A stretch of 64,000 nucleotides of DNA from Streptomyces sp. LBL (lineage in GTDB: Bacteria; Actinomycetota; Actinomycetes; Streptomycetales; Streptomycetaceae). Shown in pieces: positions 19,063-53,512 of the stretch; position 1 is the stretch's first letter; every line of letters starts with the position of its first letter. Location of the stretch: NCBI RefSeq assembly GCF_029893585.1, contig NZ_JARXYX010000008.1, positions 186,001 through 250,000 of the forward strand, written 5' to 3'. The position numbers and the translations under genes are program-made. Under the pieces are notes generated by a model. It saw only the letters and a list, made by a program, of their open reading frames with translations, did no database searches and was not told the origin of the DNA.

Positions 19063-20148
19063 ATGCGTGCAGCCCGCTTCCATCCGTGATCTTGCGTGGG
19101 AATCCCGGCCTTCAGGCCGGGCGGGAAACGCATCCTGATTGGCGGAGCCGCGAAGCGGCGTAGTACGCTGCGGGTCTGCCTCGGCAGCGGTCAGGGCTTG
19201 ACCGTCACGAGACTTCTCGGAGTCGAGTGAGAAGCCCCTTCGTTCACGAAGGGGAGGAGTCACGAATACGGCGGAGTGGAGAGCCTGGTGATCGAGCAGG
19301 CCCCCGAGCCCCACCCCGGACTTGGTGAGATCCGTGTCCGCGTCGCGGCGGCCAGCGTCAATCCCATCGACTGGAAGCTGCGCGCCGGCGACCTGCGCCA
19401 ACTGCTTCCCCTGGAGCTGCCCGCCATTCCCGGGCGCGACGCCGCCGGCGTGGTCGACGAAGTCGGTGACGGAGTGCAGGGGGTGAGCATCGGCGACCGC
19501 GTCTTCGGGCTGGGCGGTGTCACCGGCGCAACCGCAGAGCTGGTCATCCTCTCGGCCTGGGCCCACTCCCCCGACACGTGGAACGATGAGCAGGCCGCGG
19601 GCGCCGGTCTCGCGTCCGTGACCGCGATGCGTGGCCTGAACGCGCTCGGCTCCCTCGCGGGGCGCACCCTTCTCGTCGAAGGCGCCGCCGGAGGTGTGGG
19701 CAGCGCGGCAGTCGAGATCGCTGTGGCACAAGGTGCCACCGTGATCGGGACAGCCAGCGAACGCAACCACGAGTTCCTCACCTCTCTCGGCGCCGTTCCC
19801 ACCACCTACGGCCCCGGCCTCGCGCAGCGCCTCTCCGCTCTCGCTCCGCACGGCGTCGACATCGCGCTCGACACCGCGGCCTCCGGATCCCTGGACGACC
19901 TCGTCGCGATCACGGGCGACCCGACGCGCGTCGCGACGGTCGCCGACCACGTAGGCGGGCAGCGTCTGGGCACGCATGTGGTCAACGCGGAGAACGACTC
20001 CACCCTCCTGTCCGCGGCCGCGGAACTGGGTCGGCAAGGCCGCTACACACCCCGTATCGAACAGACCTACCCCCTGGAGCGGATCGCCGACGCCCACGCG
20101 CACGCCGAGCGCGGACGCACACGCGGAAAGATGGTGATCTGCATCTGA
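19063..20148 (+). pseudogene. NADP-dependent quinone-oxidoreductase-like gene, split by insertion
   Basis: A zinc-independent MDR/quinone reductase gene interrupted after codon 7. Codons 1-7 (19063-19083, MRAARFH) follow an AAGGCAGGA site. After a ~180-bp insert the gene resumes as EYGGVESLVIEQAPEPHPG, which rebuilds the normal MRAxxFxEYGG N-terminus. Downstream (19276-20148) the enzyme is intact: VRVAAASVNPIDWKLRAGDL, IPGRDAAGVVDEVGDGV, the NADP-binding LLVEGAAGGVGSAAVEIA, and a C-terminal ERGRTRGKMVI typical of the family. Translation might restart at GTG 19276, since the insert ends with GGGGAGGAG, but spacing (16 nt) is poor. Divergent HxlR gene suggests an electrophile or quinone response. 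Confidence 0.8.
19084..19263 (+). mobile_element. IS200/IS605-type non-autonomous element (MITE/PATE)
   Basis: A ~180-bp insert with no open frame, bounded by the two halves of the oxidoreductase gene. Near the left end is a perfect hairpin, CCCGGCC-TTCA-GGCCGGG (about 19104-19121). Near the right end is CCCCTTCGTTCACGAAGGGG followed by AGGAGTCAC. Subterminal hairpins without terminal inverted repeats or target duplication are the hallmark of IS200/IS605 elements, and the ending GGGGAGGAGTCAC resembles right ends of actinobacterial tnpB-bearing members. No tnpA or tnpB is present. Whether the right-end transcript resembles an omega-RNA scaffold is inference. Edges are uncertain by a few bases because CAT and CAC both restore histidine. 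Confidence 0.72.
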
Positions 20149-52136: not shown

Positions 52137-52306
52137 GCGCCCGAACGCTAGCAGTCGGCTACCACGTCAGTCACAGCACGATCGGCCCTTCCGAAAACAG
52201 GGCGCCAGGCAAGTGACTCCTCCTCCTCATGGATGAAGGAGCTTCTCGCCATGCCGGGTTGGCGTCACGACGGCCCGGCCCGGCCGGCGGGCCGGGCCGG
52301 TCTCAC

Positions 52307-53512
52307 TCACCGGAGGGCGTCGAGAAGCAGGTTCGCGGCCACCGACGCTCCGTCGGTGCGGAGCTTGCCGCCCAGAGCCTTTGCCCGTGCCCGGGTCTCG
52401 GGTGCCAGGGCCGTCTTGAACGCGACGTTCAGGGACTCGATGGTCGGAGTCGGACTGTCGAGTGCCGCGCCGATATCCAGGTCTGCCACCCGGCCGGCCC
52501 AGTACGGGTTGTCCGCCAGCTGGAGAGGTACCACCACTTGCGGCGCGCCCGCCCGGGCGGCCGTCAAGGTCGTGCCCGCGCCACCGTGGTGTACCACGGC
52601 GGCCACCCTGCCGAACAGACGCTGGTGGTTGACCTCACCGATGGCGAAGCAGTCGTCCCGGTCGTCGACCGGTTCCAGGTCCGCCCAGCCGCGGGAGACG
52701 AGCACGCGGTGGCCCTGTGCGCGGATCGCCTCGATGGCTCTGCGGCCGATGTCCGGCGACGGGCGCATGCTGCCGAAGCCCACGTAGACCGGTGGCGCGC
52801 CCGCGTCCAGGAACGTCACCAATTCGGCCGGGAGCGGGCGTTCGTTCGCCAGGCTCCATGCACCGGTCTGTGTCACGTCGAGGCCCGGGGTCTTTCGCCA
52901 CGGTCCCAGGACCGGGTCCGCCGCCAGCCACGGCCGGTCGGTGAAGACGTGGTCGCGGACGTTGTCCACGGGTGGCAGACCGATCGATGCCCGGTGGCCG
53001 TTGAGCGACTCGCCGAATTGCGCGTTCACATGGTGGGCGTCCAGCTCCCACAGCGTCCGGTTGTCGTTCACCTCCGGCTCCGGCCAGCCCGGCCGCGGTG
53101 GCGGCGCATGGTGCGGCGACGGGAGGTTGACCGCCGAGTAGCTCGCGTACACGTAGTGGATGCCCGCAGCCTCGGCCACAGAGCGCGCGGCAATCTGCGC
53201 CAGGCCGGCCGCCACCAGCGCGTCACATCCGTCGGCCGCTGTAGGGAAGATGTCGAATTGCGCGTCAACCAAGTCGTTCCGGTATCGGGACAGGTCCGCC
53301 GCGGACGGCAGAGTCGTCCCGCGCATCAACTCCCGCACCGGTGGCCCGACCGGCACCAGTTGCACCCCGAGACCTGCCAGCCGCTCCGCGAACTCCTCGT
53401 CGGGCGGGGCGCACATCCGGACCTCCACGCCGAGCGCCCGTAGTCGCACCGCGAGTGCCACCAGTGGTTCGACATCGCCACGTGTCCCGTATGTGGATAA
53501 CAGCACCCGCAT
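52307..53512 (-). CDS. GT1-family (MGT/GtfB-like) glycosyltransferase
   Basis: 401 residues, GT-B fold. N-terminal MRVLLSTYGTRGDVEPLVAL (1-20), acceptor domain with VYASYSAVNLPSPHHAPPPR, and the nucleotide-sugar end: PPVYVGFGSMRPSPDIGRRA, RVLVSRGWADLEPVDDRDD, AVVHHGGAGTTLTAARAGAP and QVVVPLQLADNPYWAGRVAD (the HxGxGT...P...DQ/N-type motif). It transfers a sugar from a nucleotide donor to a small lipophilic acceptor, as in antibiotic glycosylation. ATG at 53512 follows AGAGGA. It could belong to the neighbouring natural-product cluster but is separated from it by debris. Confidence 0.9.
   Translation of the reverse strand: MRVLLSTYGTRGDVEPLVALAVRLRALGVEVRMCAPPDEEFAERLAGLGVQLVPVGPPVRELMRGTTLPSAADLSRYRNDLVDAQFDIFPTAADGCDALVAAGLAQIAARSVAEAAGIHYVYASYSAVNLPSPHHAPPPRPGWPEPEVNDNRTLWELDAHHVNAQFGESLNGHRASIGLPPVDNVRDHVFTDRPWLAADPVLGPWRKTPGLDVTQTGAWSLANERPLPAELVTFLDAGAPPVYVGFGSMRPSPDIGRRAIEAIRAQGHRVLVSRGWADLEPVDDRDDCFAIGEVNHQRLFGRVAAVVHHGGAGTTLTAARAGAPQVVVPLQLADNPYWAGRVADLDIGAALDSPTPTIESLNVAFKTALAPETRARAKALGGKLRTDGASVAANLLLDALR

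Follow-up and report, generated by a model that had tools for sequence, protein, structure and literature searches.

A 180-bp IS200/IS605-type insertion in a Streptomyces oxidoreductase gene carries a predicted TnpB-type guide-RNA module

We analysed a 64,000-nucleotide stretch of DNA from Streptomyces sp. LBL (the window, to which all positions refer), in which a gene for a zinc-binding oxidoreductase is interrupted by a 180-bp insert at 19084-19263, directly 3' of a CCAT at 19080-19083. Up to the junction the gene reads ATG CGT GCA GCC CGC TTC CAT (19063-19083), placing the insert after the seventh codon; the insert starts CCGTGATC and ends GAGGAGTCAC, and the gene resumes with GAA TAC GGC GGA from 19264. 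The present frame encodes MRAARFHP and meets a stop one codon into the insert, whereas an ortholog-like N-terminus is obtained when MRAARFH (19063-19083) continues as EYGG at 19264. No transposase frame was found within the 180 bp. A sequence-only reading made earlier had proposed a split gene holding an insert of about 180 bp without an open frame; both points held, with the length fixed at exactly 180 bp. The features of the interrupted gene are as follows.

19063-19083, plus strand: first seven oxidoreductase codons (MRAARFH), now followed by Pro and a stop (sequence, ortholog comparison)
19080-19083, plus strand: target tetranucleotide CCAT, kept left of the element; predicted TnpA target (33/37 elements) and putative TnpB target-adjacent motif (TAM)
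19084-19263, plus strand: 180-bp non-autonomous IS200/IS605-type element (PATE/MITE), by 29/29 empty fetched orthologs and six own-genome copies
19264-20148, plus strand: the remaining, otherwise undamaged oxidoreductase frame (Pfam ADH_N, ADH_zinc_N, ADH_zinc_N_2)

A search with the downstream gene matched 63 of 392 genus genomes at E<=1e-60 (own genome included; at most two candidates were scored per genome, so copy numbers are lower bounds), and 30 oxidoreductase loci were fetched, namely that of the window and 29 others (L126-L154). The insertion was seen in the window alone. All 29 other loci showed an empty site with both flanks contiguous, the junction being CGCTTCCAT/GAATACGGCGG in nine, CGGTTCCAC/GAATACGGCGG in seven and a variant in 13. 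These contiguous flanks indicate an exact insertion without target duplication, as the sequence-only reading had held, and they bear out its statement that codons up to 19083 joined to those from 19264 give the family N-terminus. Furthermore, the remaining frame is 97% identical in DNA to its closest orthologs, and the intactness of the gene apart from the insert suggests that the event was recent. A contrary reading, that the insert is conserved promoter or coding sequence of the oxidoreductase, can be set aside as practically disproved, as no supporting point was found for it, the insert occurs in 0/29 of the fetched orthologs from other genomes, and six copies lie at unrelated sites of one genome.

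At 19276, downstream of the element's GGGGAGGAG, the window has GTG after the insert where most fetched orthologs have GCG (GGCGGAGTGG versus GGCGGAGCGG). Orthologs L138 and L146 also have GTG, and the codon could be either a new start codon or an ordinary polymorphism.

We then compared the insert with the rest of its own genome (G000, 95 contigs). Six full-length copies were found, the window one included; those at C11 and C42 are 98% and 97% identical to the window copy, and those at C14, C17 and C36 80%. These copies show that the insert is not a chance sequence, and all six have CCAT on the left flank and the terminus GGAGGAGTCAC. An isolated left end lies at C37. A complete IS605 was found at C30, with its left end after CCAT and its right end GGAGGAGTCAC; its tnpA, on the minus strand, matches Pfam Y1_Tnp at E 9e-42 (HUH Y1 transposase) and is divergent from a plus-strand tnpB with OrfB_IS605 and TNB domains. 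The right terminus of C30 is GAGTCAC, as in the window element, and a 30-nt segment, GGGAATCCCGGCCTTCAGGCCGGGCGGGAA, is common to both left ends. The C30 TnpA is a candidate for moving the insert in trans; 5' of the common hairpin, however, the two left ends diverge, so that C30 may not be the actual mover. Three further IS605s of the same genome with divergent tnpA/tnpB (C3, C10, C49) have different ends by inspection.

Besides C30 (L009), complete IS605s with divergent tnpA/tnpB were found in other genus genomes at L105, L108, L112, L113, L115 and L124, with like ends and with TnpA/TnpB 77-84% identical to those of C30. The right end of the window element is 70-75% identical over 77 nt to three autonomous right ends, and is alignable with the remaining ones over the last 38 nt only (79-92%). 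The window element thus resembles the C30-type IS605s in its CCAT target, GAGTCAC terminus and homologous ends, but differs from them in having neither tnpA nor tnpB and a right end of a diverged lineage. Of the 37 elements scored, 33 have CCAT directly before the left end (18/22 mobile elements and 15/15 other left ends; the left core could not be located in 4/26 mobile elements, which were left unscored), compared with 1.5% of background positions. Folded as DNA, the left subterminal hairpin had a z of -1.92 (7/200 shuffles as good) and the right one a z of -3.27 (0/200), in agreement with the two hairpins of the sequence-only reading. By analogy with IS608, GTGG and GTGA are candidate guide sequences; when folded as DNA, the window copy shows the pairing of GTGA with TCAC and C30 does not.

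19096-19099, plus strand: GTGG, candidate left guide sequence, pairing with CCAT by three Watson-Crick pairs and one G-T (by inspection)
19104-19121, plus strand: left-end hairpin CCCGGCC-TTCA-GGCCGGG (DNA fold; same hairpin in the C30 IS605)
19227-19230, plus strand: GTGA, candidate right guide sequence for TCAC, with which it pairs when folded as DNA
19235-19254, plus strand: right-end hairpin CCCCTTCG-TTCA-CGAAGGGG (P4; RNA alignment, DNA fold)
19260-19263, plus strand: right terminus TCAC, end of element and scaffold (copies, empty sites)

Subterminal imperfect palindromes without terminal inverted repeats, insertion 3' of a fixed short target without duplication, and a related autonomous element encoding an HUH Y1 transposase are all features of the IS200/IS605 family; a length too short for a transposase together with dispersed similar copies is a feature of PATEs and MITEs. 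Judged by its ends and copies, the insert is a non-autonomous, palindrome-ended IS200/IS605 element (PATE/MITE). The family assignment of the sequence-only reading is thereby supported, and the genome search that it had advised returned five more copies and the complete C30 element, with related complete IS605s in other genomes. Neither outcome that it had named as refuting came about: the relatives examined have an empty site in place of conserved sequence, and elements with related ends do occur.

A 188-bp query matched 49 of 392 genus genomes at E<=1e-8 (own included; with at most two candidates scored per genome, copy numbers are lower bounds), and 4/61 of a mixed sample of relatives, all four from the same genus; many of the relatives' assemblies are drafts. 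Plasmid records gave 12 matches, all from Streptomyces, and phage records gave none. In the plasmid NZ_CP109170.1, a nearly complete copy (83.6% identity over 97% of the query) starts at the initiation codon of a gene whose product is annotated as a Tat-pathway protein.

A conserved RNA structure, whose stems show compensating changes, was recognised in the right 109 bp of the insert. We searched named genomes for an exact 20-mer of this half and found it in 94 stretches, mostly Streptomyces, of which 80 were fetched. We set aside L190, L199, L206, L209, L211 and L222, where the rest of the module is absent; L157 and L234 failed the extraction rule, L192 lay too near the locus end, L160 (a tandem duplication in P2) was omitted, and exact repeats were merged. 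The alignment (A3) comprises 82 modules; diverged RNAs are under-represented in it, as it derives from an exact-match search. A four-stem structure accounts for A3 with 92.2% paired cells and 186 double-changed cells, compared with a shuffled mean of 51.6 (sd 6.3) and 18-41 in slid versions. The evidence from covariation resides in P3 and P4, by a shuffle comparison that ignores phylogeny. Among the 25 aligned elements bearing a left end, P3 alone showed 22 double changes against a shuffled mean of 4.3 and maximum of 9.

19155-19263, plus strand: predicted omega-RNA module, 117.2 bits with covariance model R1 (the window sequence belongs to the R1 training set)
19164-19169, plus strand: promoter-like -10 hexamer TACGCT (TAnnnT near this place in 60/84 loci)
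19176-19187, plus strand: RNA stem P1, CUGC-CUCG-GCAG (hardly varies; 41% paired in the pruA class described below)
19188-19204, plus strand: RNA stem P2, CGGUC-AGGGCUU-GACCG (invariant, partly by search pattern)
19206-19229, plus strand: RNA stem P3, CAC/GTG then GACT/AGTC (strong covariation, 6/7 pairs with double changes)
19264-19279, plus strand: predicted guide GAATACGGCGGAGTGG, the gene's own codons (putative guide role)

P2 and its loop are conserved by construction, since the training sequences were chosen by an exact 20-mer inside P2. A candidate pseudoknot, possible in 91% of cells, would join the loop GGGCUU to AAGCCC (19232-19237); as it is nearly invariant, with zero double changes, covariation lends it no support. 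Folded by itself to minimum energy, the RNA of the window copy lacks P3 and is only modestly stable (z -1.79). An Rfam scan of the insert gave nothing at the gathering threshold; the best weak match, HgcC (20.5 bits versus a gathering threshold of 50, E 0.049), is full-length and spans 19172-19269, possibly a distant relation to omega-RNA or chance. No literature linking HgcC with IS1341 or tnpB was found among the matches listed.

We built the covariance model R1 from A3, which includes no tnpB element of the C30 kind, and applied it to tnpB loci; its E-values are rough. R1 found the tnpB 3' end and right end in 25/25 C30-type loci tried, at E 2.1e-12 or better, and the tnpB 3' end in 7/7 loci of a TnpB clade 67-70% identical to C30, at E 1.7e-6 to 1.3e-11. 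The differently ended IS605s L047 and L048 gave no match, and L046 only a weak off-place one (E 0.0016); in this tally of 36 rows, L046 and the second matches in L302 and L009 are uncounted, and L063, a right-end relic, stands outside the 25. In a 150-genome sample, 57 genomes had an R1 match at E<=0.01 (own included). The matches at tnpB 3' ends indicate that the RNA is homologous to TnpB omega-RNA, and by this homology the right half of the insert is a predicted TnpB omega-RNA scaffold, and a complete one. The sequence-only reading had suspected the relic of such a scaffold; this was right but understated, as the scaffold is complete, covarying and preceded by a promoter-like element.

Several related sequences were observed in passing. 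At 52213-52323 on the minus strand, the window holds a second right end of the autonomous C30 type with an omega-RNA module (R1 47.3 bits, E 4.9e-13). The stretch read has no left end, tnpA or tnpB, and this right end is a relic downstream of another gene. In the 67-70% clade (L295-L302), the 3' end of tnpB bears this RNA structure too. The clade, whose TnpB is full-length, was considered as a domesticated partner and rejected, being another IS605 with a distantly related tnpA on the same strand in 6/7 loci (L299 and L300 are one locus, giving seven distinct loci, and L296 has no visible tnpA). Long TnpB-like frames of 660-790 codons stop to stop occur in the own genome (L038-L043; C2 twice, C16, C29, C5 and C46), with a C-terminal zinc ribbon and D/E/D-like motifs; they are much longer than C30 TnpB, and five of them look like close paralogs. 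In Streptomyces sp. NBC_01669 (G433, the genome of L191), C30 TnpB has fifty matches, several of which are interrupted by a single internal TGA or fall into two parts.

A TAnnnT motif, sought from 36 to 12 nt before GCGGTC, was present in 60/84 loci (shuffled mean 11.0, maximum 20; 0/84 in a control window further upstream), and its first base nearly always lay 23-27 nt ahead of that sequence. It occurred in 39/43 loci without a left end, 19/25 with a left end and 2/16 with a decayed left end, and is thus missing in 6/25 left-end-bearing elements and in 14/16 decayed-left-end loci.

At the other end of the module, the predicted guide begins at 19264, so that it reads into the EYGG codons, as the sequence-only reading had said of it. 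Its first 13 nt are present at the empty site in 16/29 orthologs, in eight of these directly after CCAT; all 16 nt were found at the empty site in 0/29, base 14 being the usual difference. We infer that, with CCAT standing directly before the guide sequence, a TnpB could cleave sites lacking the insert and thereby keep the element in the genome. In the own genome, CAT plus the first 11 guide bases with up to two mismatches occurs at 75 sites, versus 34 for the reversed pattern. At C2:224616 and C45:5202 of G000, CCAT is followed by the first 11 guide bases with one mismatch at base 4; these sites are possible off-targets or chance.

We therefore favour, at a probability of roughly 0.7, a non-autonomous IS200/IS605 element with its own guide-RNA gene, a passenger for both movement and retention. 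A C30-type TnpA in the same cell would excise and insert the element as a single strand via the end hairpins. The promoter-like sequence would drive transcription of the scaffold and about 16 nt of flanking DNA, and a C30-type TnpB acting in trans would use this RNA to cut the chromosome copy that lacks the insert (CCAT then GAATACGGCGG), whereupon repair would restore the element. In other Streptomyces the RNA half has outlived the left end and may do another job.

The last step of this scheme concerns chromosomal sites in other Streptomyces where the same RNA occurs with its left end lost or decayed. Left-end scores for 88 RNA loci were >=43 in 28, 24-35 in 16 and <=22 in 44 (shuffled maximum 22). 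Fourteen of the 16 middle-scoring loci, which are also 14 of the 16 decayed-left-end loci above, share the sequence upstream of one gene start (class 1: L160, L174, L180, L181, L184, L186, L189, L200, L202, L204, L212, L216, L220, L229). The translation at L180 reads as what we take to be pruA, and here the element begins right at the start codon; the decayed left end of this apparent fossil may now serve as gene leader and ribosome-binding site. In our own explanation, insertion at start codons spares the gene because CCAT is the complement of ATGG. A second site (class 2: L169, L177, L183, L191, L198, L207, L234) lies beside what is presumably a CIRCE-like element, and a third is shared by L157, L176, L203, L213, L215, L218, L221 and L232 (class 3) and lies beside tRNAs, as judged by L213, the one class-3 locus scanned; Rfam on six stand-alone-RNA loci gave three tRNAs at gathering, all in L213, and nothing else. 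In L161 (class 4) the RNA has cbiQ on one side and an ABC-transporter gene on the other, and in L173 (class 6) it lies at the guaA end. Single cases are L097, at an Aconitase_C (leuD-like) gene, and L103, between PrmC-like and Sua5-like genes. In L085, L173 and L196 the RNA copy follows guaA directly, and CGAGTGGGA, the end of the gene, appears again just past the RNA, which gives the impression that insertion was followed by restoration of the coding end.

Taken together, the 57 aligned loci with left-end scores <43 showed 88 double changes in P3 and 58 in P4 (shuffled maxima 42 and 29), much of which could predate fixation. Within classes, P3 had nine double changes in class 3 (shuffled maximum 8) and five in class 2 (maximum 5); class 1 had one against a shuffled mean of 1.3, and so shows no within-class covariation. 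In successive 8-nt bins past the right end, identity was 85/96/52/40/41% in class 1 (12 sequences from 14 loci), 78/79/36/22/23% in class 2 (6 of 7 loci) and 100/87/36/38/44% in class 3 (7 of 8 loci), compared with 31/29/30/28/32% in 26 left-end-bearing elements. The first 13-16 nt past the right end are thus conserved at fixed loci, as would be expected of guides, and random in copies with a left end. We do not claim these conserved 16-nt stretches as guides, because the same stretches fold with the sequence that follows: the 3' flanks of the three classes gave mean z values of -1.06, -1.83 and -1.62, versus -0.11 for left-end-bearing copies, and class 1 shows AACTCCTT, anti-Shine-Dalgarno-like, in a loop. 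Exact searches for a second genomic target beside CCAT for the guide-like stretches of classes 1 and 3 found none: class 3 gave seven matches in 7/8 genomes, each the RNA's own locus, and class 1 gave 11 matches in 9/11 genomes, nine own and two elsewhere without CCAT.

No match to a TnpA/TnpB query set (which included some wrong own-genome TnpB frames) was found in L155-L234 at E<=1e-8. At genome level, 34/37 genomes searched match C30 TnpB at E<=1e-20, several of them distantly, and 8/9 genomes with low C30-TnpB scores have PF07282 (TnpB). The class-1 genome G429, whose assembly may be incomplete, has no PF07282 match at E<=0.01, which argues against TnpB as a universal partner. For the fixed loci, a guide role and a TnpB-free regulatory role are both possible.

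We accordingly weighed the alternative that the RNA belongs to a family of host regulators, which the element either carries or gave rise to and which no longer needs TnpB. The window copy would be the mobile form of this family, and the family would act by riboregulation or as a terminator-like 3' structure. The sites shared across species (the pruA start codon, the CIRCE-like element, the guaA end and others), the folding 3' flanks with the class-1 loop, and G429 all speak in its favour. The scaffold is nevertheless homologous to the tnpB 3' end, TnpB matches are present in nearly all the genomes surveyed above, and the 3' sequence of the mobile window copy is arbitrary flank. On balance this explanation seems unlikely.

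A broader proposal, which we offer tentatively and at less than even odds, is that stand-alone TnpB-type guide-RNA genes with their own promoters are widespread in Streptomyces, spread by short IS605 passengers and acting in trans with a TnpB encoded elsewhere. Several would have become fixed (pruA, CIRCE-like, tRNAs, cbiQ-ABC, guaA), would keep a guide-like 3' sequence of 13-16 conserved nt, and would have taken on a new host function that depends only in part on TnpB. The pruA class weakens this proposal, having neither a -10 in the usual place nor covariation of its own.

Ends-only IS605 derivatives (PATEs) are known from PMC3119063, and a single one in Halanaerobium from PMC7290912. The insert might accordingly be such a passenger, its hairpins moved by TnpA and its RNA part a dead relic of a tnpB 3' end. 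The right end overlaps the scaffold, so that part of the conservation (P4) serves transposition, and the pruA class lacks P3 covariation of its own. P3, however, lies away from the end hairpin, yet its compensating changes in left-end-bearing elements exceed every shuffle (22 versus at most 9); some P3 compensation also appears within classes 2 and 3, and the -10-like motif recurs. A dead RNA half is, in our judgement, improbable. The favoured reading, a passenger with its own guide-RNA gene, can be set beside several known systems.

Stand-alone omega-RNAs that act in trans and are encoded away from the nuclease accompany IscB in Ktedonobacter, and TldR regulators count as domesticated relatives. 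Meers and colleagues reportedly described omega-RNA-only PATEs in Geobacillus in 2023. These cases differ from ours in nuclease, host or type of locus. In the literature searched, PMC12558985 and PMC10711439 included, no report was found of guide-RNA-bearing PATEs or stand-alone TnpB RNAs in Streptomyces.

Among the PATEs of Haloquadratum (PMC3119063), some arose by core deletion of IS605-type elements, and one, HqIRS71, retains part of the C-terminal coding region. The window element resembles them in having near-terminal palindromes and no transposase gene, terminal inverted repeats or target duplication. Unlike PATEs as that source describes them, it has a complete, covarying scaffold that also exists apart from the element, and a guide RNA or promoter is absent from the PATE descriptions given there. 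Nety et al. 2023 (PMC10278001) found a hairpin near the 3' end in almost all TnpB scaffolds surveyed. The window scaffold, like the omega-RNA/reRNA of that source, ends at the right end with a subterminal hairpin near its 3' end, has its predicted guide outside the element, and would share a target-adjacent motif with TnpA. In the TnpB systems of PMC10278001 and of Karvelis et al. 2021 (PMC8612924), however, the omega-RNA/reRNA is processed from tnpB mRNA, whereas the window RNA is preceded by a promoter-like element and has no tnpB.

Should the RNA act in trans, the smallest members of this transposon family would parasitise two proteins at once, using another element's transposase for moving and its RNA-guided nuclease for retention. 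The loci without a left end would then mark natural stages in the passage of a mobile guide RNA to a host RNA. The predicted target can be read off from each mobile copy, which makes the idea directly testable, and Streptomyces is an easily manipulated, antibiotic-producing genus.
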